64,000 nucleotides of DNA from Armatimonadota bacterium (GTDB taxonomy: Bacteria > Armatimonadota > Zipacnadia > Zipacnadales > JABUFB01). The notes below the pieces were generated by a model. The model searched no databases. It saw nothing but the letters and a program-made list of their open reading frames with translations, and was not told the origin of the DNA. The stretch covers positions 62,001 to 126,000 of the forward strand of contig JABUFB010000017.1 in NCBI GenBank assembly GCA_013314775.1, given 5' to 3'. Each line of letters begins with the position of its first letter. Position 1 is the first letter of the stretch. This document shows, piece after piece, positions 22,192-40,062 of this stretch. The position numbers were made by a program, and so were the translations under genes.

Positions 22192-22199
22192 GGGTAATG

Positions 22200-22866: not shown

Positions 22867-24615
22867 TCATTCTTCCTCGCCGGGGTCTTCGTCCTGTGCG
22901 TATTTGCCGAGTTGCTCCCGGGCATAGAGGCGCACGGATCGGTCTGGATCGTGGGTGATCATGTGGCTTACCATCTCCCGGGCCACCGGGTTGTCCATGC
23001 GCCCAAGTATCCAGGCCGCGGCTTCGCGCCGGCGCGGGTCTGGGTGTCCAGTAAGTCCGAGGATCCGGGGCAGAATGAACACTCCCGCACGGAGTAGCAC
23101 GATGCGCGCGACTTCGTGCAGGTCCGGGGAAACCAGTGCTGAGAAGACGGTCTCGGTTCGCCTGTCACCCGGAGTCAATGGGTGCGTGTCGAATGCTGCG
23201 AGAAAGCGCAATGCTCGCATATCGGCCTCAATCGTCGCGCTCAGAGCCTCCTCGTCATCCTCGTCCAGGAAGTCCAGTTCGTCATCATCCTCGTCCCATA
23301 GCGAGTGTTGTTCGGGGGCGTCAGCGTCGGCCGTCTGCGCTTCCTCATCCGCCTCAAACTCCAGCTCTTCGTCCTCGGGGAAATCATCTTCCGGCAGATC
23401 CTCGCGGAGAAACAGGTCCAGCCAGTGGGGCGCTGTGGGCTCCTCAATATACGACTGCCCCGGCGCAGGGCTGTCGAGAACGTCGCCCGCTCGCGAGGGA
23501 ACGACCTCATAGTCTCCGTCATCCAGCGCATTGGCCCGGAAGCGAAGCGTTGCGCCGGTCTCCATTGTGCCGGGGACCTCGAACATCGCCCGCCGAGTTG
23601 CCCGCGACACCAGACTGTCCAACGGGCGCGCTCCAAGCCCTGCGGCGGAGGCCATCTGCGCCGCACGCGACACGAAATCCGGCGTGAAATCGAGACTCAG
23701 CCCTTCGAGAGAAGCGGCTTCACGCAGGCGCGCGATGGGGCCGCCGTCCTCCTGTTCAAGGATCCTCTGCAGATCACTCTCGTCCAGTTCGCGGAGGGGA
23801 ATCACGGTATTCAGGCGCCCTGCCAGTTCCGGGCGGATACCGTAAGCGATGAGGTCATCCGGCGTCACCTCGGACAGCAGGCTCGTGCGAGACAGTTCGC
23901 ACAACTCATGTGTCGCACTGCCGGGCCCGAACCCGATGCGGCCCGACCTCGGCCGTAGTCGCTCTCGCACGATCTCGTCGAGCCCTTCGAAAGCACCGGC
24001 GGCGATAATACACAGTCCGTGTGTTTCGAATTGGCCCTGGTAGACTGCGCGGCGTTCGCGGGACGACCCGGTGCTCGCCAGATTGAGCTTGCGTCCTTCG
24101 ACCAACGCGAGCAGTTCCACCTGAACATCGTCGCCTCGAATGTCTCGGCCATCGCCCTCCTGGGTGCGCAGCTTGTCCAGTTCGTCCAGGAAGAGGACAC
24201 CGCGCTGGGCATCGGCGACATCTCCTCCAGCGGAGCAGATCAGGTCCTGAACGGCGTCCACAACCGAACGCCCTACGTAGCCGGTGCCGCTGAGGTGGCC
24301 GCAGTCCTCGGCGTGGAACGGGAGCCCACAGATCCGCGCGAAAGTTCTCACCATGTGGGTTTTCCCACTGCCGGTGGGACCGATGAGGAGCACGGTGTCG
24401 CGCCATCGTGGCACGCAGGGGAGATCAAGCTCCGAAGCCCTGACCCGGAGAAGATGCTGTCGCATCACTGCTGCGAGGTCGCGGACAGCCGCATCCTGCC
24501 CGACCACGCTGCGCTGGACCGCCAGGGCGAGCTCACGCGGACTGGGCAACTGGTCCAGCACGCGGCGCCGGACATCGGAACGCTGGCCTTCGGACGGTCT
24601 CGTGGGATCAAGCAT
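22867..24615 (-). CDS. ClpX-like AAA+ unfoldase without zinc domain, HEAT-like C-terminus
   Basis: A 582-aa protein starting at ATG 24615 after GGGG spacing. The N-terminal zinc-binding domain of ClpX is absent. The AAA+ core is clearly ClpX-type: Walker A GPTGSGKT (79-86), pore loop GYVG (112-115), Walker B VLFLDELDKL (140-149), RIGFG (226-230) at the position of the ClpP-docking IGF loop, and sensor-2 GARPLDSLVSRATR. After residue ~390 comes a long acidic linker (many Glu/Asp, 430-490) and then a helical segment with HEAT-like repeats (DPRRREAAAWILGRMDNP, DPDRSVRLYAREQLG). It could unfold selected substrates for ClpP. The extra domain may be a substrate or adaptor receptor, which is inference. 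It is cotranscribed with the coiled-coil gene at 24662, and a paralogue lies at 38175. Confidence 0.88.
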   Translation of the reverse strand: MLDPTRPSEGQRSDVRRRVLDQLPSPRELALAVQRSVVGQDAAVRDLAAVMRQHLLRVRASELDLPCVPRWRDTVLLIGPTGSGKTHMVRTFARICGLPFHAEDCGHLSGTGYVGRSVVDAVQDLICSAGGDVADAQRGVLFLDELDKLRTQEGDGRDIRGDDVQVELLALVEGRKLNLASTGSSRERRAVYQGQFETHGLCIIAAGAFEGLDEIVRERLRPRSGRIGFGPGSATHELCELSRTSLLSEVTPDDLIAYGIRPELAGRLNTVIPLRELDESDLQRILEQEDGGPIARLREAASLEGLSLDFTPDFVSRAAQMASAAGLGARPLDSLVSRATRRAMFEVPGTMETGATLRFRANALDDGDYEVVPSRAGDVLDSPAPGQSYIEEPTAPHWLDLFLREDLPEDDFPEDEELEFEADEEAQTADADAPEQHSLWDEDDDELDFLDEDDEEALSATIEADMRALRFLAAFDTHPLTPGDRRTETVFSALVSPDLHEVARIVLLRAGVFILPRILGLTGHPDPRRREAAAWILGRMDNPVAREMVSHMITHDPDRSVRLYAREQLGKYAQDEDPGEEE

Positions 24616-24661
24616 TGGAGTTTCCCCATTACGTGTTGTTCTCGGTTCGTGTGCTGGGCGC

Positions 24662-24862
24662 TCACCGCATTGCGTTGGCAATCTGTCGCTCGATGTCGGC
24701 GATCTGGCGGTCCAGGTCTGCGATGTCGCGCTCCGCCACGGACGCCTGGTACTCCCACCCGGTCAACTGCCGATAGCGGAGGAGATCCCTGGTGCGGTTC
24801 GCTTTGCGTTGCAAAAGGCTGGCCTTGCGGCTCTGAAGGCTGGCGATCTGGTTGTTGGACAT
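24662..24862 (-). CDS. Small coiled-coil protein upstream of ClpX-like gene
   Basis: A 66-aa protein starting at ATG 24862, with AGAGG about 11 bp upstream. The whole length is predicted helix with heptad-like hydrophobics: IASLQSRKASLLQRKAN and ERDIADLDRQIADIERQIAN, suggesting an antiparallel or dimeric coiled coil. It ends 46 bp before the ClpX-like gene on the same strand, so the pair is likely cotranscribed, and it may be a substrate, adaptor or regulator of that ATPase. I do not recognise a named family. Confidence 0.7.
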   Translation of the reverse strand: MSNNQIASLQSRKASLLQRKANRTRDLLRYRQLTGWEYQASVAERDIADLDRQIADIERQIANAMR

Positions 24863-25170
24863 GCGGCGTGTTCCTCTTTTCAGGTGATGTCTGGGCCCGC
24901 ATGGCGGTCTGCATTCCCATGCACCGCCACTGGCCTGTCTTGCTTCACCGTGTTCTACGCCCCGGCAGTTCGAAGTGTGACAGTTGGTGCCGTCGTGTCT
25001 GAAGCGTTTCGCTGCATGATGTCGGTCTGTATCTTGCGGTGCGCGAAAGCTGTGCATCTTACTGTCACAGTCTGCTCTCGGAGAATGTAAAAGCAATTGT
25101 TCGTCCGACCGTTGCGCGTCTGCTGGATGCCAGAGGATGAAGCGCTCGGCTTGGGCCGGGAGGGACCCGT
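24863..25170. promoter_or_regulatory. Divergent promoter region with distant inverted repeat
   Basis: This 308-bp gap separates the minus-strand coiled-coil/ClpX-like pair from the plus-strand zinc-ribbon/ARPP-1 operon, and so must hold two divergent promoters. It is less GC-rich than its surroundings. TGTGACAGT at 24976-24984 and ACTGTCACA at 25061-25069 are a perfect 9-bp inverted pair 76 bp apart, suitable as two facing operator half-sites. I could not fix -35/-10 boxes with confidence. No gene is visible. Confidence 0.45.
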
Positions 25171-25881
25171 ATGCTTTGCAAGTCGTGCGGTGCCAGTTTC
25201 CCGCCGAAGGTGGACCGTTGCCCGTACTGCGGAGCCGGGCGGCCACCGGCGCCCATAGGCGACGTCGGGAAAACCGGCTGCGTGTGCCCGACTTGCTATT
25301 CGGCGCTGGTGAAAGTTCCCGAGAAACGAGACTACTTCAGAACTGAGACTCGGTACACCCGGCGAGCCCAGGAGATACGCGCCGAACATGAGGCTGCCCA
25401 TGCCAAGGAGGTGCGCGATTACCGGGCGGCCCATTCGGGCTGGGGTTGCGGGTGCTCGCTGGCAGCACTTGGGCTGTTTCTGATGTGGGTCAGTGGCGGC
25501 GGGGGCTTCCTGACGCAGGTCGGGGTCTACTGTCTACTCGGCGGGGCAGCGTACGTGCTCTGCAAGTACGCCTATACCGAGCTGACCCTCCCGAAGCAGG
25601 CGCCCCTTCCGGACGGAGCAGAAGAGACCGAGGAAGTGCAGGAGCTCGATCGCACCCGTCGCGGGATGATGCTGAAGTGCCTGAGTTGCGGGTGGGAGGA
25701 CTGGGAGCTCAACTACAACGAGGGCGCTCAAGCAGCAGTGCAGGCGGCGAAGGCGGCAAAGAAACAAGCCCGGGCGGCCGAGCGCGCTGCGGAGGCTGCG
25801 GAGAGCCAGGCGCAGGCTGCTCGCGACCAGGCGGATGCCCGGGAACAGATGCTCTGGGAACAGCGGTTTCGCGGCAAGTGA
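25171..25881 (+). CDS. Zinc-ribbon membrane protein with coiled-coil tail
   Basis: A 236-aa protein. It opens with a zinc ribbon (LCKSCGASFPPKVDRCPYCG), has a second Cys pair (CVCPTCYSALVKVP), then a charged helix (~60-85), and a hydrophobic region of two spans (residues ~95-135, SLAALGLFLMWVSGGGGFLT and GVYCLLGGAAYVLCKYAY). A third zinc-binding-like motif LKCLSCGWEDWELNYN follows, and the C-terminus is a long Ala/Gln-rich coiled coil (AERAAEAAESQAQAARDQAD). It is probably an inner-membrane protein with cytoplasmic zinc domains. The function is unknown. It is the first gene of a short operon with 25940 and 26188, divergent from the ClpX-like pair. Confidence 0.8.
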   Translation: MLCKSCGASFPPKVDRCPYCGAGRPPAPIGDVGKTGCVCPTCYSALVKVPEKRDYFRTETRYTRRAQEIRAEHEAAHAKEVRDYRAAHSGWGCGCSLAALGLFLMWVSGGGGFLTQVGVYCLLGGAAYVLCKYAYTELTLPKQAPLPDGAEETEEVQELDRTRRGMMLKCLSCGWEDWELNYNEGAQAAVQAAKAAKKQARAAERAAEAAESQAQAARDQADAREQMLWEQRFRGK

Positions 25882-25939
25882 ATCTCCGTTTCGAACACCG
25901 GCACCCATTTCAGGACAAGGAGAGTTTGGAGGAGCGACA

Positions 25940-26191
25940 ATGAGTTTCAGAGATTTCGTTGAACGCCTCACACCAGTCTACCCGCAGGAGAGTGACGAAT
26001 GGCAGGAGGTACTCAGTGACGGTTCGGCTGGGGCCACTACGGCGGGAACAAGTCGGAGATGGTTCAGCTCCGGCAGTAGCGGCCCCATAATTGCCCGGCG
26101 ATCTGCGGATACAAGATGGGTTGTCACACTCCGGCCCCCCGCAAGCTATATACAGGAAAGAGACGCACATCCCAGGAGGCTACACAGATGA
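25940..26191 (+). CDS. Small protein coupled to ARPP-1 gene
   Basis: An 83-aa reading frame. It has a strong ribosome-binding site (GGAGGAG at 25928-25934) and its stop overlaps the next ATG in an ATGA arrangement at 26188, both arguing for real translation. The first 25 residues (SFRDFVERLTPVYPQESDEW) look like a folded protein. The rest is Ser/Gly/Thr/Arg-rich and may be disordered or serve mainly for coupling. No family is recognised. Confidence 0.6.
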   Translation: MSFRDFVERLTPVYPQESDEWQEVLSDGSAGATTAGTSRRWFSSGSSGPIIARRSADTRWVVTLRPPASYIQERDAHPRRLHR

Positions 26192-27126
26192 ACGCACTGA
26201 AGGACCGCATCGCCACGCTGCAAGTTGGCGAACCGATCTCCGCTGGAGATCTGGCGGTATTCCCGCTACTGGGAACGCCGCAGCCCGGACCGGACTACCT
26301 GACCCTTGACGAAGCGGTGGCCCAGAACGCCGTGGTGATATCGGAGGTTGATGCTTCGGGCGTCGTGGGGGAGGTGATCGCGAGAAACCTGGCTGCAACA
26401 CTCGTTCTGATCGTGGAGGGCGAGCAACTGGTCGGCGCCAAACAGAACCGCACCCTCAATACCTCGGTTCTCCTGGGGGCAGGACAGGCGGTCAACATCC
26501 CCGTCAGCTGCACCGAGTCTGGCCGCTGGCACTACGTCTCTCGTGGTTTCGGCCCCAGCAGGAACTATTCGCACCCGGAGATGCGCCGCCAGAAGTCGCG
26601 CAGCGTCAACCGCTCCCTGCGTGTTCGCATGGGCTTCCGGTCTGACCAGCATGCGGTCTGGCAGGAGGTCGACCGGGTGGCGACGCGCCTCGGCGCCGTC
26701 TCACCCACCTGCGACTACGAAGGGGTCCACGAGGCCGTGGGGCGTCTGCAGGAGACGCGCTCTGGTCGTCTGGAGGAAATCCGCTTGCCCGAAGATGCGC
26801 TCGGCGTGGTGGTCACCTGCCGGGGGAGGATCGAGGCGGCGGATCTGTTCGACCGCCCCCGGACCTTGCAGCTGCTCTGGCCAAAGCTGGCACGAGGTTA
26901 CGCGCTCTGCGCGCTGGACCGAACGAGTGGCAAAGAACCTGGCGAACTGAGCACTTCCACCGTCGCGCATTTTCTCGAGAGTGCCGCTTCAACGGCGAGC
27001 GAGAAGTATCCATCGCCGGGAGTGGGGGAGACAGTCCGCATCGACGGCCCGGGCATCACCGGCGCATGCCTGACCGTTGGAGACCACCTTGTCCACGCGT
27101 CGGTCTTTGGCATGTCTGAGAGGTAA
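26188..27126 (+). CDS. ARPP-1-type domain protein
   Basis: A 312-aa protein from ATG 26188, preceded by CCAGGAGGC. The N-terminal half fits the ARPP-1 domain (named for association with ADP-ribosylglycohydrolase and rhodanese-phosphatase proteins): DLAVFPLLGTPQPGPDYLTL, VIARNLAATLVLIVEGEQLV, GAKQNRTLNTSVLLGAGQAV and the conserved CTESGRWHYVSRGF. The C-terminal part has a second mixed alpha/beta region (GVVVTCRGRIEAADLFDRP). The domain's biochemical activity is not established; it is found with ADP-ribose-linked signalling genes, none of which I see here. It is coupled to 25940, and the helicase module begins 195 bp downstream. Confidence 0.75.
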   Translation: MNALKDRIATLQVGEPISAGDLAVFPLLGTPQPGPDYLTLDEAVAQNAVVISEVDASGVVGEVIARNLAATLVLIVEGEQLVGAKQNRTLNTSVLLGAGQAVNIPVSCTESGRWHYVSRGFGPSRNYSHPEMRRQKSRSVNRSLRVRMGFRSDQHAVWQEVDRVATRLGAVSPTCDYEGVHEAVGRLQETRSGRLEEIRLPEDALGVVVTCRGRIEAADLFDRPRTLQLLWPKLARGYALCALDRTSGKEPGELSTSTVAHFLESAASTASEKYPSPGVGETVRIDGPGITGACLTVGDHLVHASVFGMSER

Positions 27127-27321
27127 GCCGCATCACAGCTGCAGCGTCAGCATCAGTGCAGATGAAGCGCGGCAGCATGTGCAGCACACGGGAGGACTCG
27201 TGGCAGGCATGGGCGAAGCCGCAACACGATCTGCACGGGTGCTGGACGCCGCCGTCCTCTGCGACCCGTCATATCTGCATCGCTCGCAGTTGAACGTGAT
27301 GCACAAACGGGGGGAGCAGCC

Positions 27322-30216
27322 TTGATCCTCGACCAATACATGGACCTGGCCCAGTGTGAAGAAGCGCTGGCGAGCCAGTTATCCGGCAAGACACTCTTAG
27401 GAGAAGCGCCACTAGAAGCCGAAGATGTCTGCAAGCTGGGAAGGCTCTTCTGCCTTATGGACTCGCCGGCTACGATTTGGCGACGGTTCCCTTTCTGCGC
27501 TGCGTGTTTCACCACCGGAGTTTTCTCCCATTTCTATGACGACAAGTACTGGCCACATTTTAGGGACCAGTACTTGCAGCTGTCTGGTGCAGAAGAGACC
27601 GAATGGCGCGATGCCTTTGAGGGCTTCCTGAGGCGCACTGGATTGCCCGCTTTTCACCACGTAGACGGGCAGAGGTTTCTAAGGCATGTGCGCATTCACG
27701 CCCTTATCCCGGCAAACGGGGTCGGGCGGCTCTTCGAGCACGTAGTGCGTCCAGCGGTCATGCGTGGTCTTGATGATGGCGAATGGACAGCCGCAGAGAT
27801 CCTTCGCGAACTGGGAGTCTCATACCCTCAACTGCATAGGCCTGAGGAGAACTTCCTGAACTACGGGGGACATGTTGCGGATGACCTGCTCGGACGCTGC
27901 ATGACCCTTTATCGAAGATCGGTACAGGGGTCTGTCGGCGATGACAGTCTCGACCTGCCGCAGTGGCTTGTGGATGCCTTTCGCGAATGGATAGACGGGC
28001 ACCCCTCCCACCGCATCCCGTTGGAGGGCCATGCGGAACGCCCGCAGATACATCTTCGGCTATCTCTTGACAGTGCAGCGGTTACGCTGGTGGTCGCGCA
28101 ACTGCCCTCAGAGTGGCGTTCCGGACGGACGATGAACGTATACGCCGAAAACGGGCCCGATGATTCCACTCTGGTGGCCGCGCAACGCGTCGAGGTCGAC
28201 CCGTTCGTGAGACAGACGGAGTCGCGGCTCGAGCTGCCGCTCGAGACTTTGGCTTCTCGCTACCGTGTGGAATGGCGGAAAACTGACGACGAATGCTCCA
28301 CCGTCGAACATGTGCGGGGGTTCCTGGGTAACGGAGTCCGCTGGGCGGCATTCGCGGCCAACGACCCGGAGAACAGATTGATCCGACAGCAGTACCTGCC
28401 ACGGGGCGAAGTCTGGCTGGTGTGCCCGACAGATGCATGCGTGAAGGCAGTCCAAATAGACGGCGGAGTGGTCGAGCCGGCCCAATGCCCAGAGAGCTTT
28501 GGGTTGGATGGGATCAGCGGGATGTCAGCACGCCTCATTGATACCATGCGTTGCTCCGGCCTCGTACTTGAGATGAGTCCGGCAGACGGCAAGACGGCCG
28601 AAGAACACATCCCAGTGGACTTGATGCCCCAACTCAGGCTGGTAGGGGAGGTCCCGGGGGCGTCGATCGCCGGAGTGCCGGTGTGCGCAGAGGTTCCCGA
28701 AGTTGACTGTATTGGCGACAACAATGGTGTAGTCGTGGAGATCGAACTGCTGGACGGCATGGCGAGACCGCCACTTCCTGCGTTCGTTCAGGCGTCAGAA
28801 TTGCGGGCAGTTTTGCAGGGACGGTCTGGGGTCTTTCGGTTCCGTGTTCGCGGTCGTCTGGGGCGACGCGGAACGCCAGTCACGGTCGCCCTGATCCCCG
28901 GCTTGCAGGTCCGCTTCACTCCCCCCATCGTACTCCCCGGGCACAATGGGCACACGGTAGTTGACGTCTCAGCGCCTCATTGCCAGGTGCGCAGAAACCC
29001 CCAGTCTGCACACCCGGGTGTATCCGGCCATGACCCGATGGTAGTTAGTCCCGATGCGCGCCGGCTAAATCTGCAATTGGTGCACCTGCCGCCAGGGGGG
29101 GGAGCGCGCCAGTTCGATCTGGCGGTGGTTGTCCCCAGGCTACTGGTGGGAGTGACCACGCCCGGTGGTGAGCCCAATTTGCTTCCGGCTGTGGCGAGAA
29201 TACCGAAGCAGTCAATTGAGAACACGCCCCGCGTTTTCCTGGACCTCTTGATGCAGCCTAATCCGACTAGATGGAATGCGACTCTGCGCGCGGATGCCCT
29301 CCAAGCCGCCGTTACGCAGCCGGCGGGCCGGCAGACCTCCAGCGCGCGCATAAGGTTCGACCTCGCGATGTGGAGAGACGCCATTCTCGCGGCAAACAGG
29401 GCTGTCGAGTTGCGTGTCGATGCCTATCGCGCCGACCTGCAGATAGCTGAAGGAACTCTTGTCGCTCTCATATCATCGGAGTGCCGACTGGTCAATGCCA
29501 CTGCTGAATTCGTTCTAGGTGGCCGAGGCGCAATTCTCCGCTACGAATTCGATCCCCACGGCCCTGCGGCGAATTTGCGCCTGGTCAGCACCTCTTACCC
29601 TTGGCTGTCACCCATCGAGATCCAGGTTCCCGGACGGCACAGAGGCGAGATCGAGCTGCCCAATATGGCCCCGGGGGCGTACGCGATCGAGCCCGTGGGA
29701 GACCCGTGCAGTCAGGCTGACATCATCCCTGATCTCGACGGCATGAAGTGCTTGGACCTGCTGACCCACGACGAGGCGCAGCAACATGGTTGGGAGGCGT
29801 TGCTTCGAAAGACCGCGCAGATCTGGGACGGAACGTGGCGTCAGCGCGGCGGCCAATGGGAACTGGACGAGGAGAGCGCGGACCGGGCGGACCATGATAT
29901 GTCCCGGTACGTCAGAGAAGCGCAGGGCACGCACCCCGCTTTGCGTCTCAAAGCCGACGATCTCCGCCACACATTGGTGCTCATGGTGTACTGGGGCAGC
30001 CAGTCTGTCCGCTGCAAGCAGGCCATGTCTGCGCAGTACTGGGAGCGGGCGGTGCTTCTGACGGTCAGGCTGCTTAGGCAGTGCACTCACGCACCCAACC
30101 TCTTCGGAATGCTCACCGATCGGCTCGATGAGCTCAGACAGGTCGCATGCCCGAGGACCCGCGAGATCTGCCGTCGACTTCAGGGCGTGCTCATCAGATG
30201 TTTCCAGCGCTGCTGA
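27322..30216 (+). CDS. Large partner protein of DUF1998 helicase, unknown family
   Basis: A 964-aa protein with no recognised enzyme motif. The start is TTG 27322, 4 bp after a GGGGGGAG run (27310-27317); ATG 27340 is the alternative. The N-terminal ~220 residues carry segments that recall a conserved domain of large helicase-associated proteins: FPFCAACFTTGVFSHFYDDKYWPHF, where FPFC and YWPHF are key, then GLPAFHHVDGQRFLRHVRIH, ALIPANGVGRLFEHVV and FLNYGGHVADDLLGRCMTLY. Residues ~240-800 are beta-rich, possibly several Ig- or CARDB-like modules. The last ~150 are helical. It ends 20 bp before the helicase start and is surely cotranscribed. By position it is equivalent to the large non-helicase subunit of two-gene helicase defence systems such as Druantia III; homology to DruH is not shown. 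Confidence 0.6.
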   Translation: MILDQYMDLAQCEEALASQLSGKTLLGEAPLEAEDVCKLGRLFCLMDSPATIWRRFPFCAACFTTGVFSHFYDDKYWPHFRDQYLQLSGAEETEWRDAFEGFLRRTGLPAFHHVDGQRFLRHVRIHALIPANGVGRLFEHVVRPAVMRGLDDGEWTAAEILRELGVSYPQLHRPEENFLNYGGHVADDLLGRCMTLYRRSVQGSVGDDSLDLPQWLVDAFREWIDGHPSHRIPLEGHAERPQIHLRLSLDSAAVTLVVAQLPSEWRSGRTMNVYAENGPDDSTLVAAQRVEVDPFVRQTESRLELPLETLASRYRVEWRKTDDECSTVEHVRGFLGNGVRWAAFAANDPENRLIRQQYLPRGEVWLVCPTDACVKAVQIDGGVVEPAQCPESFGLDGISGMSARLIDTMRCSGLVLEMSPADGKTAEEHIPVDLMPQLRLVGEVPGASIAGVPVCAEVPEVDCIGDNNGVVVEIELLDGMARPPLPAFVQASELRAVLQGRSGVFRFRVRGRLGRRGTPVTVALIPGLQVRFTPPIVLPGHNGHTVVDVSAPHCQVRRNPQSAHPGVSGHDPMVVSPDARRLNLQLVHLPPGGGARQFDLAVVVPRLLVGVTTPGGEPNLLPAVARIPKQSIENTPRVFLDLLMQPNPTRWNATLRADALQAAVTQPAGRQTSSARIRFDLAMWRDAILAANRAVELRVDAYRADLQIAEGTLVALISSECRLVNATAEFVLGGRGAILRYEFDPHGPAANLRLVSTSYPWLSPIEIQVPGRHRGEIELPNMAPGAYAIEPVGDPCSQADIIPDLDGMKCLDLLTHDEAQQHGWEALLRKTAQIWDGTWRQRGGQWELDEESADRADHDMSRYVREAQGTHPALRLKADDLRHTLVLMVYWGSQSVRCKQAMSAQYWERAVLLTVRLLRQCTHAPNLFGMLTDRLDELRQVACPRTREICRRLQGVLIRCFQRC

Positions 30217-30236
30217 CTCCGGAGGTCCGCTTCGCC

Positions 30237-33200
30237 ATGTTCGACCCGATCCAAGTGACTCTAGACTTGCGTTCACAGTATGAGAGCTACGTGACGACGA
30301 CGCTGCCGATCCGGTATGACGGTCTAATGGACGACCTGCGCCGTGAGTTGGCCAGCCCCGATACCTTCGTCAAGGGCCCCTATCTGGAGGCGACGCCTCC
30401 TTTCGTTCACCATGATCAGACCTACTCTGAGCTGGTGGAGCAGGGCCTCCTGTGCCAGGGCTGGAAGGCGGTTTTTGGCCCCGATTTTCCCCCCGAGCGC
30501 CGCCCCTATCGACACCAGTACCTAGCATATGAACAGGTCATTCGGCGGAACCGCAACCTGGTTGTTGCCACTGGAACGGGTAGCGGCAAGACGGAAGCTT
30601 TTCTCGTGCCGGTCATCGACTATCTGTTGCGGCAACAGGAAAAAGGGGAGCTTGGGCCGGGTGTACGTGCGCTGCTGCTGTACCCGATGAACGCGCTGGC
30701 CAATGACCAGCTCAAGCGAATGCGGGAGTTGTTGCAGCATCTGCCGACGATCACCTTCGGACGTTACACAGGCGACACGCAGAATCAACGCGACCAAGGC
30801 AGACAGCAATACATTGAGGAGCACCGGAATGAAAGTCGGTTCCGCGAACCCCTGAAGAACGAGCTCCTCTCCAGAGAAGAGATGCACGCAAGCCCTCCCC
30901 ATCTATTGTTGACGAACTATGCGATGCTGGAGTACCTGCTCCTCCGTCCCGAGGCATCCCCACTCTTCGGACGCGATCAGTGGCGGTTTGTTGTTCTGGA
31001 CGAAGCTCATACCTATGACGGTGCACGAGGTATCGAGGTCGCAATGTTGCTGCGCCGCCTGAAGGATCGGGTTGTGCGCAGCGAACCAGACCGACTGCGC
31101 TACATTGCAACCAGCGCTACTTTGGGTACCGAAGAACGGTCAGACATCAAGGTGGCCGAATTCGCAGGGGAGCTGTTCAGCGAGGAGTTCTGTGCGGACG
31201 ATGTGGTCATGGGTGAGAGACAGGCATTGTGCGAAGATGGTCAGGCTCTGTGGACCATGAAACCATCTGCATTTGCATCTCTGGCGGAGGCGGCCCAGAA
31301 AGAGCCCTGCGACTTGTCCGATCTCGCGGTCCATGCAATTGATCTTGGCGTGCCTGCAGACATCGTTGCCGAAGCGAAGGGGCATGCTGAACAGCTCTCC
31401 ATGACAGAAAGCTCGGACGACACTCGCGCGCGGATCAGTCGTTTCCTTTATGATCTTCTGAAACGCGAGGAATACCTGTGGAAGCTGCGAGCCACTCTGG
31501 ATGAGCACCGTGTCCAGAGCTTGGAAGCTGCCCGGCGAAAAGTCTTTGGTGAGCTTGACCCGGACACGGGGCGAGAGGCCCTCGTGGGGCTTGTCGCCCT
31601 CGCTGCTCGTGCTCGCCCATCGTCGTCAGAGACCAGCCTGCTTCCTGCAAGATACCATGTGTTCGTTCGCGCTCTTGAGGGAGGCTTCGTTCGGCTCTAT
31701 AAAGGGGCGAGGCTTCACCTCGCTCCGCGCGAGACCGAGGAAGTAGAGGGCCGAGAAGTCCCAGTGTTCGAAGCTGCCGTCTGCACCAACTGCGGCTCGC
31801 TCTTCCTCGTAGGCGACTGGCAAAGTGGCAGGATCTGTCAGGCACCCCTCAAGGCCGCTGACCACATTGGTGACAATGTGGAGCTCTTTTGGGTGACCCC
31901 GGACGCAATGTGCCCTGGCAACGCGGACGATGAGGATGAGGACCTGGAAGGCGAGAGTGATGCGTTGGCGACGGTCGACCCGGAGTCCTTCGCTTTGTGC
32001 ACTGCGTGCGGGGACGTGCGACCACAGAGCGAGACCACCCCATTAGTGTGCACTTGCGGCGCGAGTCAACAGTTCGTGAGACTGATCAGGGCTGCCAAGT
32101 CCAAGGATGACATGGTGCGCCAATGTCCGGCCTGCAAGAAGACTGCTCAGCGCCGCTCCATGATTTCGCGGTTCACACTCGGGCGCGACGCACCGATCGC
32201 CGTCTTGGCCAGCACGCTGTACGCTCATCTGCCGGAGACGACCTTCGGGGGCCAAGAAGAGACCGAGGAGCGGAGAGCACGGCAGTTTCTTTCCTTCGCA
32301 GACAGCCGTCAAGACGCGGCATTCTTTGCTGCGTATCTTGAGCGTACCCACAACCGCGTCCAATGGCGCAGGATCATTTACCAGACACTGCTGCGCAGTT
32401 CCTCTATGGCGCGTGACGGGGAGTGGGTGTTGGATGACTTGCAGCCCTTGGTGCAACGATCCGCCGTGGAGCTCGGCCTACTGGACGCGACCGAAAGACC
32501 GCAAGAACTGATTAACGAAACGTGGCGTAACCTGCTTCTTGAGTGTCTTCGTTTCGACCGCCACAATGACCTGGAGGCTACAGGCTGTATTGCATACAGG
32601 TATCGACGGCCTGCAAGCTGGACAGCGCCGTCCCTGCTCAAAGATGATCCGTGGGGGCTAACAGATGACGAAGTCTGGGCACTGTATGAGACTTTGCTCG
32701 ACACGGCACGCGTACACGGGGCTGTGACGTTCCCGAACACTACGCTGCAGCCCAACGATGAATGCTTCGCGCCAAGAAATCGTGAGGTGTTCCTCGTCTA
32801 CCAGGTAGAAGGCGCCCGTCGCGATGTGGTGAAGTGGCTTCCGTCCGAAGGGCGCACGAACGGCCGGTTTCGCGTGCTGGAAAGGCTCTCAGAAGGCAGA
32901 GCCGAGATCGGCCACCAACAGATCGAGGAAGCGCTCCATGCCATCTGGGACGACCTGACATCACCCCGCACGTCCGTACTGCGCTTTCGGTGCGATAGGC
33001 GCGGTGCGTACTACTACCAGATCGATCGTGAACGCCTCCTGCTAGCCGGCCCCGAGATCGGCAATGCGCAATGGTTCCAGTGCAACCTGTGCAAACAGTT
33101 GACCACTCACAATCTTCGCGGCGTGTGTTTTCAGACAGGCTGCAACGGTGTCTTGGTCCCATGCCACCCCAATGAGGCTCTAGCTGACAACCATTACCGT

Positions 33201-35195
33201 CGCCAATACTCGACGCCACACGAGGACGTACCTATCATCCCGATGTCAGTGCGCGAACACACAGCGCAGCTTTCGAACGAGCGCGCTGCACGGCTGGCAA
33301 CCGACTTCGTTGCCGGGCGCGTGAACGTTCTGAGTTGCTCAACTACCTTCGAACTCGGTGTGGACATCGGTGAGTTGCAGTCCGTATTGCTTCGCAACAT
33401 GCCGCCGAAGCCCGCGAACTACGTGCAAAGAGCGGGCCGGGCAGGGCGGCGCCTCGATTCTGTTGGCTTTGCACTCACCTACGCCCAACGTCGCACCCAT
33501 GATCTATTCTTCTTCCAACACCCTGAGCGGATCGTCAACGGGCAGATGCGTGCTCCCCGCGTGCGGGTGGCCAACGATAAGATCATCAAGCGCCACATGA
33601 ATGCCGTCGCGCTGGCAGCCTTCTGGCGAGAGCACCCGCAGTATTTCTACGATGCGGGCACCACGTCCGAACGAGCCAGGGCGTTCTTTGGGTCTGGTGA
33701 TCGCGCAGACGGCGTGGAGGCTTTTCGGCGGTTTATCGCCCAGAAGCCAGAACACGTGAGAGACGCTCTCACGAGAATAGTCCCAGATTTCGAGATCCGT
33801 TCCGGCCTCTTCTTTCATGACTATATCGGCGTTAGGGATTGGGGTCGGTGGGTAGAAGATCTGCTCGCCGAGGGCGACTCCGAGACGCCTGGGGTGCTGA
33901 CCAAGGCATCCGAGGGCTATACCGGAGAGTTGATGAGCATCAAGGACCTTATGGACCAGCTCGAGAGCGAGAAGCCCCCCAATTGGACAGGGCGCTATGG
34001 GCACTTGGAAAGAGTGCGGGAGACAATCTGGAAGAGGAGGCTGATCGGCTACCTCGCGAGTAAGGGTGTCTTGCCTAAGTACGGTTTCCCGGTGGACGTC
34101 GTTCCTTTGCAGATCAACAACACGAACATCCCACGAGGCGACACCAATCCGGAAGATCCTCTCGAATTGGACCTGGATCGCGACTTGAGAATCGCTCTCG
34201 CTGAGTATTCGCCCGGCTGCCAGATCGTGGCCGGCGGCAGCGTGTGGACATCGCGAGGCATCCATCGTCCGTCGGACCGCCAGTGGGTGCGGCGGGAATG
34301 GCGAGTGTGTGATGGGTGCGGGCGATACTTCTCACGCGTCTACCTGCCGGGCGAACAGACAGCGGACTTCGGCGACTGCAACGTGTGTCAGACAAGACTC
34401 CGAAGAGGTAGCGGGTCCGGAGGGGTGTTCATCGTGCCTGAGTTCGGCTTTAGCACACATCATGAGAAGCCCGGCCGCCCGGGCGAGCGCAGACCCCGAC
34501 GTGCGCATACGACAGAGGTGTATTTCTCCGGAAAAGACCAAGCTATCGCGCAGGGCGCCCCCCGAATCGTTGCAGGCGGCAAGATCACGGCCACAGCCTG
34601 GCGCGACGCGGACCTGGCAGTGATCACCCGCGACAGTTTCAGGATCTGCGATCGCTGCGGCTACGGGGTCGCGGGATGGGAGACGCCTCCTAAGGCACAC
34701 GAAACGCCGTGGGGCAAGCCCTGCGGTGGACACATCCAAAGGGCGCCCTGCCAACTAGGGTACGAGTTCAAGACAGACATCTGCCAGATCGCCCTTGCGG
34801 GTCTCGACTTCCCCGCAGGCGACCGGGCCAACTCGTTCTGGCCGTCACTTCTCTACGCTCTCGTTGAAGGGTGTGCCGTGGCTCTGGACATCTCACGAGA
34901 CGACATTGGAGGGGTCCTCTTCCGGGAGGCTGCAGGCCACAGCATCATCCTCTACGACGATGTGCCAGGGGGGGCCGGCCACACCTGGCGCATCGTGAAT
35001 GAGGACAACGCGCTTGAATCACTACTTCTGGCGGCGAGAGACCGTGTCGGCGGGGAGTGCGGCTGCCAACCGGAGACCAGCTGCTACGGCTGCCTGCGCG
35101 CCTTCAGCAACCAGCGGTATCACGAGCAGCTCCGACGCGGGGACGCATATGAGTTCCTGGACCACCAGGTCGTGCCTTACCTGACAGCGAATTGA
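30237..35195 (+). CDS. DEAH-box helicase with DUF1998/zinc-rich C-terminus (DruE/YprA-like)
   Basis: A 1652-aa superfamily 2 helicase. ATG 30237 is chosen because GGAGG lies at 30221-30225 and the product opens MFDPIQVTLDLRSQY, as in relatives; longer frames back to 30147 overlap the upstream gene. The Q-motif region is YRHQYLAYEQ (91-100), motif I TGTGSGKT (112-119), motif II DEAH (255-258), motif III SAT (293-295), and motif VI QRAGRAGRR (~1064). It has many zinc-type Cys clusters (CTNCGSLF, CTACGDV, CNLCKQLT, CDGCGRYF, CDRCGYG) and a C-terminal DUF1998/MZB domain with IILYDDVPGGAGH and CGCQPETSCYGCLRAF. The family translocates on nucleic acid and is the signature subunit of Druantia and related defence systems. 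The size and two-gene context favour a defence role over YprA/MrfA-type repair. Confidence 0.88.
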   Translation: MFDPIQVTLDLRSQYESYVTTTLPIRYDGLMDDLRRELASPDTFVKGPYLEATPPFVHHDQTYSELVEQGLLCQGWKAVFGPDFPPERRPYRHQYLAYEQVIRRNRNLVVATGTGSGKTEAFLVPVIDYLLRQQEKGELGPGVRALLLYPMNALANDQLKRMRELLQHLPTITFGRYTGDTQNQRDQGRQQYIEEHRNESRFREPLKNELLSREEMHASPPHLLLTNYAMLEYLLLRPEASPLFGRDQWRFVVLDEAHTYDGARGIEVAMLLRRLKDRVVRSEPDRLRYIATSATLGTEERSDIKVAEFAGELFSEEFCADDVVMGERQALCEDGQALWTMKPSAFASLAEAAQKEPCDLSDLAVHAIDLGVPADIVAEAKGHAEQLSMTESSDDTRARISRFLYDLLKREEYLWKLRATLDEHRVQSLEAARRKVFGELDPDTGREALVGLVALAARARPSSSETSLLPARYHVFVRALEGGFVRLYKGARLHLAPRETEEVEGREVPVFEAAVCTNCGSLFLVGDWQSGRICQAPLKAADHIGDNVELFWVTPDAMCPGNADDEDEDLEGESDALATVDPESFALCTACGDVRPQSETTPLVCTCGASQQFVRLIRAAKSKDDMVRQCPACKKTAQRRSMISRFTLGRDAPIAVLASTLYAHLPETTFGGQEETEERRARQFLSFADSRQDAAFFAAYLERTHNRVQWRRIIYQTLLRSSSMARDGEWVLDDLQPLVQRSAVELGLLDATERPQELINETWRNLLLECLRFDRHNDLEATGCIAYRYRRPASWTAPSLLKDDPWGLTDDEVWALYETLLDTARVHGAVTFPNTTLQPNDECFAPRNREVFLVYQVEGARRDVVKWLPSEGRTNGRFRVLERLSEGRAEIGHQQIEEALHAIWDDLTSPRTSVLRFRCDRRGAYYYQIDRERLLLAGPEIGNAQWFQCNLCKQLTTHNLRGVCFQTGCNGVLVPCHPNEALADNHYRRQYSTPHEDVPIIPMSVREHTAQLSNERAARLATDFVAGRVNVLSCSTTFELGVDIGELQSVLLRNMPPKPANYVQRAGRAGRRLDSVGFALTYAQRRTHDLFFFQHPERIVNGQMRAPRVRVANDKIIKRHMNAVALAAFWREHPQYFYDAGTTSERARAFFGSGDRADGVEAFRRFIAQKPEHVRDALTRIVPDFEIRSGLFFHDYIGVRDWGRWVEDLLAEGDSETPGVLTKASEGYTGELMSIKDLMDQLESEKPPNWTGRYGHLERVRETIWKRRLIGYLASKGVLPKYGFPVDVVPLQINNTNIPRGDTNPEDPLELDLDRDLRIALAEYSPGCQIVAGGSVWTSRGIHRPSDRQWVRREWRVCDGCGRYFSRVYLPGEQTADFGDCNVCQTRLRRGSGSGGVFIVPEFGFSTHHEKPGRPGERRPRRAHTTEVYFSGKDQAIAQGAPRIVAGGKITATAWRDADLAVITRDSFRICDRCGYGVAGWETPPKAHETPWGKPCGGHIQRAPCQLGYEFKTDICQIALAGLDFPAGDRANSFWPSLLYALVEGCAVALDISRDDIGGVLFREAAGHSIILYDDVPGGAGHTWRIVNEDNALESLLLAARDRVGGECGCQPETSCYGCLRAFSNQRYHEQLRRGDAYEFLDHQVVPYLTAN

Positions 35196-35232
35196 CGCGC
35201 CACGGTAGTCCTGACAGCCCGGGGCGGGACTC

Positions 35233-35556
35233 TTGTATCTCGCACCCCCAATTCCGAAGGGTGAAGCAACGTCGATCGAGCAGATACGAGAAAAGGTCGC
35301 CGAACGCATCAGCAAGCGTGGCTTGGAGTACGCCGATGACATACTGTTGCAGTGCTGCAGATTCGAGCAGCTGACGGACGGGTCGCCCTTTGCAAAGGCG
35401 TTCTCCGCAGCACTGGATTCCTTGGGCGGGCTGGGTGGCGCTGAAACGCAGGACGGTACGTGCCCTGAGGAAATGCTCGAGACGGCGCGCGGCCGGTACG
35501 GGTATGATAAGCGAGATCAGAGCGAAAAGCGCTGGTGGTTCGAAAGCCCAGAGTAG
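35233..35556 (+). CDS. Small protein downstream of the helicase
   Basis: A 107-aa reading frame beginning at TTG 35233, 37 bp after the helicase stop. It reads as a compact helical protein (IEQIREKVAERISKRGLEYA, DDILLQCCRFEQL, KAFSAALDSLGGLGG) with a Trp-rich end (KRWWFESPE). Its last 40 bp overlap the 3' end of the decayed McrB-like gene on the other strand, as if an insertion or deletion joined two loci here. No RBS of note and no known family. It could be a third component of the helicase module. Confidence 0.5.
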   Translation: MYLAPPIPKGEATSIEQIREKVAERISKRGLEYADDILLQCCRFEQLTDGSPFAKAFSAALDSLGGLGGAETQDGTCPEEMLETARGRYGYDKRDQSEKRWWFESPE

Positions 35557-36656
35557 CTGCGCCTATCCCATGATGGATGCGAATGTTGGGACCGCTGCAC
35601 GAGGTCTAGGAGCCTGTCCACGAATAGGCCGGGGCCGACCTCGAGCGACACCGTGCCGCATGCCGCCATCTGGTACTCGAACAGGTAGAATACTGGCCCC
35701 AGCACAGTGGCCAGGTTGGCGCGGTTGATTTCGTCGATGATCAGCAGCACGGGGCTCTGCGGATGGTCTCTGGCCAAGCAGATGGCACGGTGCAAGGGGC
35801 CCTCGGTTTTCTCATATGCCACGTCATCCCGTCCCAGTCTGGGCCTGATGCCCCAGACGAAGTCGGAATAGCCGGTCTCAGCGTGGAACTGGGTGAATAC
35901 ACTGTGATCCTCGGTGACGCCCAGTCTCTCAGCCATCAGCTTGGCCAGATGGGTCTTACCTGTTCCGGGCGCGCCCTGCAGAACCAGGTACTTGCGCGCA
36001 CGCAGGAGCCTCAGGACCTCCGCTTCGTCGTCGACCTCGTCGCCCCGGTTACGGTCAGAAAGGGCCTGAATCGCCTTCTCCACTGCTCGACGGTGCTGCT
36101 GGTTCCTTGGCCAGTTCCGCAGTCGCGCGTCGGCAGCAAGATAGCCCTTCACGATCTCTTCATACTCTGCGCTTCCGGGATCACGTACAACATCACACGC
36201 CAGTATGTGCTGGCCGTACTTCTCGAGTGTGGTGGACAGATGGGGCAATGGGTCGGACTGATCCGCCGGGAGCCTGGTCTCGACGTCGGCGAAGTTGGAC
36301 TAGCAGAATCCCACCGTGCGACTGGTCAGCCGGCGGTAGATGCGTTGGGTTCCCGGCCGTGTGGCCAGCTCGTAGTCGTCACCGAAACCGGCGGTGCCAA
36401 CCACGAGGCTAACCAGCCAGGGGCCGTCCAGGGCCGGGAACACGACCAGGGAGAGCCCCTGGTATGGTCCAGAAGGCGGCTCAGATCCACCGATCACCCC
36501 GAAGTACGGTGCCCCCTTTTCCAGTGCATCGCCTTCAGTCGCCTTGCGAACGATGTAGGTGACCCCTTCCTTGCCACCATACTCAGCAGACCATTACCAG
36601 AACTGCTCTGATACCTCGTCGATCTGATCCCTGTCGCTCCGGGTGGGTTCCGACAT
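35517..36656 (-). pseudogene. Decayed McrB-like AAA+ ATPase gene
   Basis: A single minus-strand frame runs from ATG 36656 (ribosome-binding site AGAGGGAG upstream) to 35517 but is broken by in-frame TAA at 36594-36596 and TAG at 36300-36302. The N-terminal part has PYFGVIGGSEPPSGPYQGLS, LVVFPALDG and LVVGTAGFGDDYELATRPGT, a domain seen before the ATPase in some McrB-like proteins. Then come Walker A GAPGTGKTHLA and Walker B VLLIIDEINRANLATVLGPV. The protein stops soon after Walker B, so sensor 1, the arginine finger and the rest of the AAA+ lid are lost, and no McrC partner adjoins. It is the remnant of a type IV restriction-like gene, cut at its 3' end near the helicase module. Confidence 0.8.
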
Positions 36657-36708
36657 CGCGCTCCCTCTTCTTGCGGGTACCGTCTCTGCAGACGTGTCAA
36701 CCTTCGCG

Positions 36709-37758
36709 TTACCGCCCTAACACTGTCAGGGCCTTCTGCTTCAGTGTGTCTTCGTTGTCCACCATGGAACGCAGGAAGCGGCGGCTGTGCTGGGTCAGGT
36801 TTCCGCGGCTGCGCACTGGAATGACCCAGTCCGAGTACTCCGTCACCGCCTGCAGGGCTGCCCAGCGCGTCCCGGAAATCGCCGGCATCTGCGTACCCGT
36901 GCTCTCAAAGAGCTCGGTAACGGAGTGCCGCGCGTCCTGCACCTGCGCCCGTTTCCGCTCCAGCTTATCCCGTTCCTTCTCGCTGCACTCGCCGTCGTGC
37001 CGTGGGGGGATCTTCGGCAAGGGCAGGAGTTCGTCCAGGAAATCGGCAAAGCCCTGGGTATTCATCTGCTGTTCCGCGAGCCACCCCGCCAGCTCCCGGA
37101 ACTCTTCGACCCAGGCCCAGGCAAGGCCCAGGGCCTGGGCCGCCTCTTTGATGCGTTGCAGCGGATTGCCCACGTGGCGGATGGTGTAACTGGCTTTGTT
37201 CCTGCGCAGAGCCAGGCTCAGGGTGTTCCAGCACACTACACGCACCGAGGTGACCGCCGCCTTGAAGGCGTGCTCTCCGTCATGCCCTGCGGTGATCAGC
37301 AGATACCCCTGAGATACGTCTTCGGTGCTTGGGATGGTGACGTCCATATCCAGCAGGCGCGCCAGTGCCCAGACGATCTTCCCGCCCGCGAGCGCTCCCG
37401 CCGTCTCGATCTGCACCGGGTGGCCTTCGTCTCGGCCCGCCTTGAGGAGATCGAAGCAGAAGCCTACGACCTCCTCGTTCTGCACGGGCGTGTAACGGTC
37501 CGTCGTGATGCCCAGGAAGCCCTCCGGGGAGTTCGCGCGGTCCAGCCGGACGATGATTGCTTTTCCCGGGACTTCCACGGTTCGGGCAGGATCGCTCGGG
37601 TCCAGAGCGGCGTAGAGGGGCCTGCGCGCCACCTGCCAGTCCAGCCCTGACAGCCGGCAAGTGGCTGCCACGTCAACGGGGTGGTCTTCGAGCACCGCAC
37701 CGAGACCGTGCCACATGGGTTGTCGCACTGAGAACCCAGACTCGAACAGGTGAGGCAT
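36709..37758 (-). CDS. DUF932 phage/plasmid-like protein
   Basis: A 349-aa protein of the DUF932 family (phage/plasmid-like). Family segments are PMWHGLGAVLEDHPVDVAA near the N-terminus, IIVRLDRANSPEGFLGITTD, YTPVQNEEVVGFCFDLL, SQGYLLITAGHDGEHAFKAA and RVVCWNTLSLALR, followed by a helical C-terminal third. ATG 37758 has GAAGGAGCC about 10 bp upstream. DUF932 proteins are carried by phages, plasmids and islands and their function is unknown. It faces away from the ClpX-like gene at 38175 and shares with it a 416-bp control region containing a long palindrome. It supports a mobile origin for this part of the window. Confidence 0.85.
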   Translation of the reverse strand: MPHLFESGFSVRQPMWHGLGAVLEDHPVDVAATCRLSGLDWQVARRPLYAALDPSDPARTVEVPGKAIIVRLDRANSPEGFLGITTDRYTPVQNEEVVGFCFDLLKAGRDEGHPVQIETAGALAGGKIVWALARLLDMDVTIPSTEDVSQGYLLITAGHDGEHAFKAAVTSVRVVCWNTLSLALRRNKASYTIRHVGNPLQRIKEAAQALGLAWAWVEEFRELAGWLAEQQMNTQGFADFLDELLPLPKIPPRHDGECSEKERDKLERKRAQVQDARHSVTELFESTGTQMPAISGTRWAALQAVTEYSDWVIPVRSRGNLTQHSRRFLRSMVDNEDTLKQKALTVLGR

Positions 37759-37878
37759 ATTGCTTGGCTCCTTCGGTCTGCTTGTATGATGCGCAGCGCG
37801 CCTGGAATCTGCCAGAGACAGTACACCCGCTGAGGCACGAGTGTGACATTTCCACTGGAAAAATCGGGAGTCGCCTGA

Positions 37879-37914
37879 CGAGAGCGCTTATTGACTGTTC
37901 GATAAGCACTCTCG
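37879..37914. promoter_or_regulatory. 13-bp palindrome in divergent control region
   Basis: CGAGAGCGCTTAT (37879-37891) and ATAAGCACTCTCG (37902-37914) form a 13-bp stem with one G-T wobble and a 10-nt loop. The site is 121 bp upstream of the DUF932 start and 261 bp upstream of the second ClpX-like gene. It could be a regulator operator or the site of a structured RNA. The rest of 37759-38174 contains no gene. Confidence 0.5.
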
Positions 37915-38064
37915 CCTCCGCACAATCAACCGGTAAATAGCGCGAGTGCCCGCATCCCCTCCTACCCTTCCTTTAATGGTTTCCCTTCCTCCCCACTAGA
38001 CGGCCCCTGGTCCGGCTGATTTGCGCCGCCGATGTCACACTGGCGCCGCGCCCGGCGTACATCC

Positions 38065-38165
38065 AGTGTATATCCAACCGGGGCTGACGCCATCATGAGT
38101 TGTTGTTGCCTCAGTCAGCCGACTCAGAGGCGACCGGCACACAGACAGTGCACATCCAATCGGGG
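38065..38165 (+). repeat. Two direct 19-bp repeats before ClpX-like gene
   Basis: AGTGTATATCCAACCGGGG (38065-38083) and AGTGCACATCCAATCGGGG (38147-38165) agree at 16 of 19 positions and start 82 bp apart. The second copy includes the GGGGAG that acts as ribosome-binding site for ATG 38175. They may bind a regulator, or reflect a small duplication of the leader. Confidence 0.45.
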
Positions 38166-38174
38166 AGTGATCAA

Positions 38175-39902
38175 ATGGGCGAAGCTATCCTTGTGCGTTC
38201 GGAAGACGACGTTCGGCCTCAACTCCAGAGCCAGTATTGCCAGGTGCTGCGTTTCGACCTCAAGCCCGAGGAGATTGCTGCAGCACTGAACCGGACCGTG
38301 GTGGGACAGCAAGATGCATGCCGGGCGCTGTCGGTACATCTGCGCCGGCATATGCTCAAGGTCCGGGAGATGCATTACTACCGCTACATGCGGCGCGCGC
38401 CCTGGAGCACCGATGACCTGGGCGGAGTCCTGCTCCTGGGCCCGACCGGATGTGGCAAGACCTACCTGGTGCGCGCTCTCGCCCAACTGGCCTCTCTGGT
38501 TTTCCACTCCGAAGACGCATCGAGCCTCACCGAGACTGGCTACGTCGGGCGCGACACCAGCGACATAGCTCGGGCGATCACCCTGGAGGCCGGTGGATAT
38601 GCACCACTGGCCTCGACGGCGCTGCTGTTCCTGGACGAAGTGGACAAGCTGCGCTTCCGCCCAGACAGTGCCGGCAAGGATGTTACCGGGGAGGGGGTCC
38701 AGCGCAGCCTGCTCGCTCTGCTCGACGGGGCGGAGGTCCGCTTCGCCAGCGACGGACGTCAGCGGAACCGCGACGTGGCCCTGGGCACCGACTGCTTGTT
38801 CATCACACTTGCCGGCGCGTTCTCAGGCCTGGAGGAGATCATCGCCCGCAGGCTGCGGCGAGGGAAGACAAGCATCGGCTTTGGGCGCGAGCCCCTCGAC
38901 CACGACCGGGCTCGGCGCCAGGGCGATCTGCTGCAGGAGGTCACCCCTGAGGACTTGGTCCAGTACGGGTTCATGACCGAACTGGTGGGACGCCTGCGCG
39001 ACATCGTGCCTCTGCGTCCCCTGGACGCCGACACCATGCGAGACATCCTGCTACATCCGGAGTGCGGCCCCCTGGCCATCTACCAGCGCAACGCCATCAA
39101 GGAGGGTTTCAGCCTGGAGTTGACCGACGATTTGGTGGACAGGATTGTCACCAACGCGCTCGGTTCCGGCCAGGGCGCGCGCGCTCTCAAGCGGATTCTC
39201 GCCCAGGTCACGGAACGCGCGCTCTTCGAGATGCCCGGGCGTGTGAGCAGGCGCGGCGACACAGTGGTGAGGTTGGGCCTGAGCGCTCTGGAGGACGGTA
39301 GGTATGAGGTGATCACTGCTCCCGCAGAGGGCGGCGCCGTGGACTGGGAGCGGATGTTCAACGAAGTGAAGGACTGGATCGAGGATCGGGAACAGATGAT
39401 GCCCCGGGGGATGGTGGCCGAGGATGAAGAGATGCTTCTGACCAAGACGTCGCAGACCGAGAAAGCAGTCAGGAACCCCACTCCCTGTTCTCGTCCGGCT
39501 GAGGAGGAAAAGCAGGTACCGGCGGAGCTGGAAGCCTCCGCAGAGGTGGCCGCAGCTCTGATCGCCAGCCAGATCAGTGGAGAGGGTTACGAAGTTGTTT
39601 GCGAGACGGAATTGAAGATGAGGGGTAGGCAGCTGGGCATCTACGACATGAGTAGCGACTTGCCCACTGTCAGGGTGACTTTGTGGGTAGCTTCCCCCGA
39701 AAACCCCGATGTCCCCCCCGAACTGTCCGGTCGTCGCCTGCGCGCTTACGCAGAGAAGGCAGGTATCGAGGCCGACGGCTGGTGCCTGCGACGAGGTGCT
39801 CGTGCGTGTGAGGTCCGGGTGCGTCCGGACGGGCGCCGCTGGCGCCGGCATGTGGTGATTATCGGGCTCGACTATTCAGAAGCCAGGAAGTACCTGCATT
39901 GA
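38175..39902 (+). CDS. Second ClpX-like AAA+ unfoldase with novel C-terminal domain
   Basis: A 575-aa protein starting at ATG 38175 with GGGGAG 8 bp upstream. Like the protein at 22867 it lacks the ClpX zinc-binding domain. The core has Walker A GPTGCGKT (89-96), pore loop GYVG (122-125), Walker B LLFLDEVDKL (150-159), SIGFG (233-237) at the ClpP-docking loop and sensor-2 GARALKRILAQVTERALFEM. The C-terminal region from ~400 differs entirely: an acidic linker, then a ~120-aa alpha/beta domain (VAAALIASQISGEGYEVVCE, TVRVTLWVASPENPDVP, RRHVVIIGLDYSEARKYLH) that I do not recognise. It probably unfolds a specific set of substrates for ClpP. It is divergent from the DUF932 gene and followed by an intrinsic terminator. 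Confidence 0.88.
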   Translation: MGEAILVRSEDDVRPQLQSQYCQVLRFDLKPEEIAAALNRTVVGQQDACRALSVHLRRHMLKVREMHYYRYMRRAPWSTDDLGGVLLLGPTGCGKTYLVRALAQLASLVFHSEDASSLTETGYVGRDTSDIARAITLEAGGYAPLASTALLFLDEVDKLRFRPDSAGKDVTGEGVQRSLLALLDGAEVRFASDGRQRNRDVALGTDCLFITLAGAFSGLEEIIARRLRRGKTSIGFGREPLDHDRARRQGDLLQEVTPEDLVQYGFMTELVGRLRDIVPLRPLDADTMRDILLHPECGPLAIYQRNAIKEGFSLELTDDLVDRIVTNALGSGQGARALKRILAQVTERALFEMPGRVSRRGDTVVRLGLSALEDGRYEVITAPAEGGAVDWERMFNEVKDWIEDREQMMPRGMVAEDEEMLLTKTSQTEKAVRNPTPCSRPAEEEKQVPAELEASAEVAAALIASQISGEGYEVVCETELKMRGRQLGIYDMSSDLPTVRVTLWVASPENPDVPPELSGRRLRAYAEKAGIEADGWCLRRGARACEVRVRPDGRRWRRHVVIIGLDYSEARKYLH

Positions 39903-40029: not shown

Positions 40030-40062
40030 CGGGGCTCTTCAGACAAGAAAGCCCCGTTTTTT
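40030..40062 (+). terminator. Intrinsic terminator after the second ClpX-like gene
   Basis: CGGGGCT (40030-40036) pairs perfectly with AGCCCCG (40050-40056), with an additional inner TCTT/AAGA pairing possible, and is followed at once by six T residues (40057-40062). This is a classical Rho-independent terminator, 128 bp after the stop of the ClpX-like gene. The remainder of 39903-40301 has no gene and must contain the promoter of the sigma-factor gene. Confidence 0.8.

Follow-up and report, generated by a model that had tools for sequence, protein, structure and literature searches.

Two diverged ClpX-like unfoldases lacking the zinc-binding domain flank a Druantia-type gene pair in an Armatimonadota genome

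We analysed a stretch of 64,000 nucleotides (the window) on contig C17 of a 6.1-Mb Armatimonadota genome, focusing on two genes for ClpX-like unfoldases, here called gene A and gene B. They lie about 13.6 kb apart with a DruE-type helicase gene between them, in agreement with the original prediction, made from the letters alone, of two such genes some 14 kb apart around a defence-type module:

22867..24615, minus strand: gene A, ClpX-like AAA+ unfoldase with an acidic linker and C-terminal HEAT repeats (ATG at 24615, stop at 22867)
38175..39902, plus strand: gene B, ClpX-like AAA+ unfoldase (residues 20-380) with a variable linker and a C-terminal alpha/beta domain of 136 amino acids

The AAA+ part of gene A occupies about residues 20-380, counted from the ATG. 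A search of the PDB matched ClpX to residues 40-373 of gene A (2e-52) and to residues 30-357 of gene B (1.5e-53), well beyond what chance would give. Pfam assigned AAA_2 and ClpB_D2-small to both, and HEAT repeats to gene A only (PF13646, 7.7e-7; PF02985, 2.6e-5). When the model of gene A was compared by Foldseek, all of the 50 best matches listed were ClpX or ClpXP. In the same model the acidic linker, roughly 80 residues long (about 400-475 in P0002 numbering), is predicted to be disordered, and it is followed by helices over the stretch that Pfam annotates as HEAT repeats. The C-terminal domain of gene B was modelled as alpha/beta with a predicted local distance difference test (pLDDT) score of 71 from only two sequences, and a fold search of the PDB with this model returned nothing at E<0.001. 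Its one convincing sequence relative is found in G001, a genome of the same genus; weaker matches within the phylum (E 4e-4 to 0.05) look like chance.

Both genes hold the Walker A motif GPTG(S/C)GKT, the Walker B motif LDE(L/V)DK, the pore-1 motif GYVG, the GRL arginine-finger box, the GAR sensor-2 motif and IGFG. They share only about 33% identity with the resident ClpX. With the NCBIfam ClpX equivalog NF003745, gene A scored 226.9 bits and gene B 230.7 bits, both below its cut-off of 359 bits, compared with 623.5 bits for the housekeeping ClpX. Relative to ClpX (NF003745 / TIGR00382), genes A and B thus share the AAA+ core, Walker motifs, GYVG, GAR sensor-2 and the IGF loop, while they lack the zinc domain and the RKH motif, carry R rather than E after GYVG and have added C-terminal domains. 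HslU (TIGR00390) has an AAA+ core from the same wider group, yet its match is far weaker (91-95 bits vs 227-231 for ClpX). An identity as HslU or Cdc48/ClpB was rejected on scores more than 100 bits lower than those of ClpX.

The sole PF06689 match in the genome is the housekeeping clpX on contig C11, which adjoins clpP in a tig-clpP-clpX arrangement (tig being called from position and size). There is one full ClpP match in the genome; a second PF00574 match is weak, 32 bits over 69 positions of a 493-amino-acid frame. The genome also has an HslU-like gene of its own, on contig C19. Recent duplication of the resident clpX can be ruled out as the origin of genes A and B by the identity of about 33% and the long separate branches described below. 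Most of what had been predicted for the two proteins is therefore borne out: ClpX motifs in both frames (with gene A on the minus strand), loss of the zinc domain from both, retention of the ClpP-docking IGFG motif, and C-terminal domains that differ, HEAT repeats behind an acidic linker in gene A and an alpha/beta domain with no fold match in gene B. The suggested check for a housekeeping clpX elsewhere also gave a clear answer, the gene on contig C11.

Genes A and B belong to a clade of seven proteins found in three of 291 Armatimonadota genomes: two in the window genome, three in G001 and two in G014, a genome of the same order. Across all 291 genomes, a profile built from the seven proteins scored the clade members at 554-860 bits and everything else at no more than 316 bits, a gap that is partly built in because the same seven proteins trained the profile. 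Single-sequence searches gave the same split (about 200-245 bits vs at most about 190), with the exception of L032, the most distant member, at 154-189 bits. Outside the phylum, 0 of 400 Chloroflexota genomes reached the threshold in a search that had no positive control. The IMG/VR, phage and plasmid collections yielded ordinary ClpX or nothing, and a single-pattern scan of genome contigs found clade members in G001 and G014 only, besides ordinary ClpX. A literature search on ClpX paralogues without the zinc domain and on phage ClpX-like proteins turned up no description of such a family.

In a careful tree the seven members formed one clade with support of 100/100, apart from 36 ordinary ClpX proteins of bacteria and viruses, and genes A and B accordingly group outside the ClpX clade; this tree was built without HslU and without L207, its root is not settled, and its long branches warrant caution. 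A quick tree that included HslU left the clade unresolved because of long branches. The phylogenetic check proposed with the original prediction was thus answered in part: the two proteins are diverged from ClpX, form a fully supported clade and match HslU more weakly, whereas the position of the root stays unsettled. L207, an IMG/VR contig, encodes at 4983-5990 a viral ClpX-like protein of 335 amino acids that also has no zinc domain; it sits on a long branch and was left out of the final tree. Taken together, genes A and B extend a known machine, ClpX, by a small new branch.

The clade has its own pattern of kept and lost motifs. The zinc domain pattern occurs in none of the seven members (one of which is a fragment without its N-terminus), and all of them lack the RKH motif, which 154 of the 200 ordinary ClpX proteins collected for comparison have. 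Pore-1 ends in R rather than E in all six members that cover the loop, compared with one of 200 ordinary ClpX proteins; the motif reads GYVGR, with GYIGR, GYYGR and GWVGR in three members. The IGF loop is kept in 7/7 members as IGFG, FGFG or MGFG, with a length of 34-37 residues against 33 in the genome's own ClpX. In the model of gene A the loop (residues 247-254) has low confidence and looks disordered, as expected for a free, flexible docking loop. The third copy of G001, 61% identical to gene B, has no C-terminal domain, and in one genome plain members without such domains seem to lie on mobile elements.

The orthologues in G001 are 77% (gene A) and 73% (gene B) identical. Between the two genomes, the ratio of nonsynonymous to synonymous substitution rates (dN/dS) is 0.18-0.21 for the AAA+ parts of both genes, 0.21 for the HEAT repeats of gene A and 0.18 for the C-terminal domain of gene B. 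The linkers are looser (0.38 and 0.76), and the housekeeping clpX stands at 0.03. These values indicate that genes A and B are both maintained and rule out their being pseudogenes; both are under purifying selection, yet they evolve much faster than clpX.

The genes around and between the two unfoldases are as follows:

24662..24862, minus strand: coiled-coil protein of 66 amino acids, immediately upstream of gene A and on the same strand
25171..25881, plus strand: membrane-type protein with a zinc ribbon, oriented divergently from gene A and kept near it in G001 (88%)
26116..27126, plus strand: ARPP-1 domain protein; conserved neighbour in G001
27322..30216, plus strand: 964-amino-acid protein in the DruH position, overlapping the helicase gene by 70 bp; orthologue in G001
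30147..35195, plus strand: DruE-type helicase (DEAD, Helicase_C, PF09369); best PADLOC match DruE1, 616 bits
35517-36320, minus strand: AAA_5 ATPase fragment of 243 amino acids between DruE and DUF932, with an in-frame stop just upstream; probably a broken McrB-like gene
36709..37758, minus strand: DUF932 protein, divergent from gene B; also phage protein family phrog_1221
40030..40062, plus strand: terminator-like hairpin and T run 3' of gene B (-14.9 kcal/mol; not listed by the consensus scan), between gene B and the sigma-factor gene
40302..41081, plus strand: sigma-70 family factor, kept near gene B in G001 (72%)
41120..42091, plus strand: WYL-domain regulator, likewise kept near gene B in G001 (90%)
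42381..44027, plus strand: tyrosine integrase downstream of the gene B cluster, unmatched in the corresponding G001 contig

The helicase holds PF00270, PF00271 and PF09369. Its 964-amino-acid partner has no PADLOC or Pfam match and no DruH match, although its size, order and overlap fit DruH. In the two-gene type III Druantia of M. smegmatis, DruH has 1132 amino acids, DruE has 1667, and the two genes overlap by 17 bp (PMC13316683). The pair in the window resembles that system in having a large partner that overlaps a DruE-type helicase with PF09369, and differs from it in that the partner is not recognised as DruH; the ClpX-like genes are no described Druantia component. In G001 the block is spread over three contigs, which carry gene A to the 964-amino-acid gene, DruE, and gene B with the sigma factor and WYL regulator, at 80-83% DNA identity. 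The Druantia pair was found there by DNA search on contigs C227 and C484, the latter holding the orthologous DNA of DruE at 83%. The block has thus been inherited within the genus, its continuity being broken across contigs. Close to gene A, the coiled-coil protein is 94% identical in G001 with a dN/dS of 0.08, making it the most conserved product measured after clpX; it is possibly in one transcript with gene A and is a possible partner of it. ARPP-1 occurs in 83 of 291 genomes of the phylum, too commonly to say anything specific.

Sequence comparison shows the motor with its motifs, the clade and what it has lost, how far the genes are conserved and where they lie; from this we infer how the two proteins would work. 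Each is very probably an ATP-driven hexamer drawing proteins through a pore lined by GYVG. In ClpX, IGF loops bind ClpP and RKH loops recognise substrate (PMC7112951). The kept IGF loop most likely docks both proteins on the single ClpP of the cell, to which substrates would be handed over for degradation, and the C-terminal domains, HEAT in gene A and alpha/beta in gene B, probably bring in particular substrates. Because the zinc domain and RKH loop are lost, genes A and B should take ssrA-tagged proteins poorly. We accordingly favour specialised ClpX-type unfoldases that act beside the housekeeping ClpX and feed ClpP, with no established role in defence, and judge this an evenly balanced call. 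Several observations weigh against it. The position of E. coli ClpX V274 is not hydrophobic in either protein (S and P, by alignment) and their IGF loops are 1-2 residues longer than that of E. coli, changes that could weaken ClpP binding; the model of gene A is poorly confident beyond the AAA+ core; and the conserved neighbours of both genes point to no substrate. The altered V274 position and longer loops would also suit unfoldases or remodelling chaperones that act alone, with the IGF sequence merely inherited, just as ClpX itself is able to remodel some proteins without ClpP. We regard such ClpP-independent action as very unlikely, since all seven members share an unchanged Gly-Phe-Gly core in this loop despite a mean column identity of only 44%. 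If genes A and B are indeed specialised, ClpP-feeding unfoldases, bacteria can make substrate-specialised ClpX motors by shedding the zinc domain and RKH loop and gaining C-terminal domains, and the two proteins would be natural test proteins in which docking on ClpP, with the IGF loop retained, can be told apart from the choice of substrate, with RKH and the zinc domain gone.

That reading describes the machine, while two further ones describe its use, so that they are not strictly exclusive. One holds that gene A, gene B or both remove or remodel defence enzymes acting on the cell's own DNA, DruE in the window genome and BREX (bacteriophage exclusion) or DruE in the sister species, or else degrade an inhibitor during infection. 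Genes A and B do enclose DruE and its partner in the window, and the contigs of the sister species, as far as they reach, agree; on contig C12 of G001 (L029, 3125-11860) the third ClpX-like gene stands beside brxL, pglZ, a partial pglX and an N-terminal DruE-like fragment of 280 amino acids. There are also precedents: in E. coli, ClpXP degrades HsdR, a helicase-like motor and type I restriction subunit, preventing self-restriction, and CmdTAC is triggered by ClpP-dependent antitoxin decay (PMC12707154, PMC11618068). Control of HsdR is the nearest, as a helicase-like defence enzyme is there the target of a ClpX-type motor, but it is the ordinary housekeeping ClpX that does this, not a dedicated paralogue. 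The distribution speaks differently. Of the 291 genomes of the phylum, 11 gave a DruE match at E<1e-60; the clade accompanies it in just two of them, the window genome and G001, and is missing from the other nine, and G014 has two members without DruE. The linkage of genes A and B comes from a single genus and so counts as one evolutionary event, with no recurrence across unrelated genomes. Moreover, gene A is divergent from the Druantia pair, with the zinc-ribbon and ARPP-1 genes in between, and its strand together with the terminator after gene B argues against a single operon. The proposed survey of neighbours thus upheld DruE between the two genes and added the copy near BREX, while confining the linkage to one genus. 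The link to virus defence is weak, without an established tie to the Druantia-type genes alongside. A defence role like that in HsdR control is possible for genes A and B, with one lineage behind it, and we consider such control unlikely. A functional tie to proteolysis-linked immunity or to regulated toxin/antitoxin turnover, as first suggested, is not supported; in the vicinity of genes A and B no toxin-antitoxin pair could be recognised. A bolder version, in which dedicated ClpX-type motors with exchangeable C-terminal recruiters from mobile elements aim ClpP at defence or invader proteins, for example keeping DruE in check, appears highly doubtful.

The other use would be that of a mobile element: the clade would be phage- or plasmid-like cargo that, to the element's benefit, remodels either restriction enzymes of the host or proteins of the element itself (complexes for replication or recombination), genes A and B being domesticated copies. 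The two copies of G014 lie in similar, duplicated cassettes of small genes, one by an ArdC-N antirestriction-type gene and the other on a contig with an integrase. A 96-amino-acid neighbour there has a C-terminal motif of which 16 of 26 residues are common with a protein encoded between DnaB-like and primase-like genes on a phage contig in IMG/VR. This family, whose members end WTR...VK..HRAFWGMPPL, adjoins the ClpX-like genes in G014 and comprises these small proteins:

L173, 1367-1657
L032, 3754-4044
L255, 4920-5378

Gene B itself is near DUF932 and an integrase, and ClpXP homologues of unknown function are known from some phages (PMC12707154). The surroundings in G014 thus speak for carriage by mobile elements no less than for defence, and the clade may have spread on such elements. 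We nevertheless hold its use as an element's machine to be improbable, as the phage motif match is short, the IMG/VR, phage and plasmid collections gave no clade member, genes A and B have the same base composition as their surroundings, and gene A has been passed down vertically within the genus together with its neighbours. Attachment-site repeats and tRNAs were looked for and none was found.

Further defence-type genes, which also count in favour of a defence link, lie farther along the window:

44759-48249, plus strand: DUF2357 and PDDEXK_7 nuclease, next to a HARE-HTH and AAA protein (PADLOC PDC-M26A, 2.6e-47)
49982-51133, minus strand: Cas_APE2256 domain protein of a CRISPR-associated type family (PF09651, 2.7e-30)

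The two adjacent proteins at 44759-48249, next to an integrase, look like a McrBC-type restriction pair. No direct repeats of at least 20 nucleotides were found within 42000-58000, and hence no CRISPR array was seen there. On the other side, a minus-strand run of genes for glycosyltransferases, an alpha/beta hydrolase and an acyl carrier protein (16975-22454) resembles an exopolysaccharide cluster and ends just downstream of gene A.

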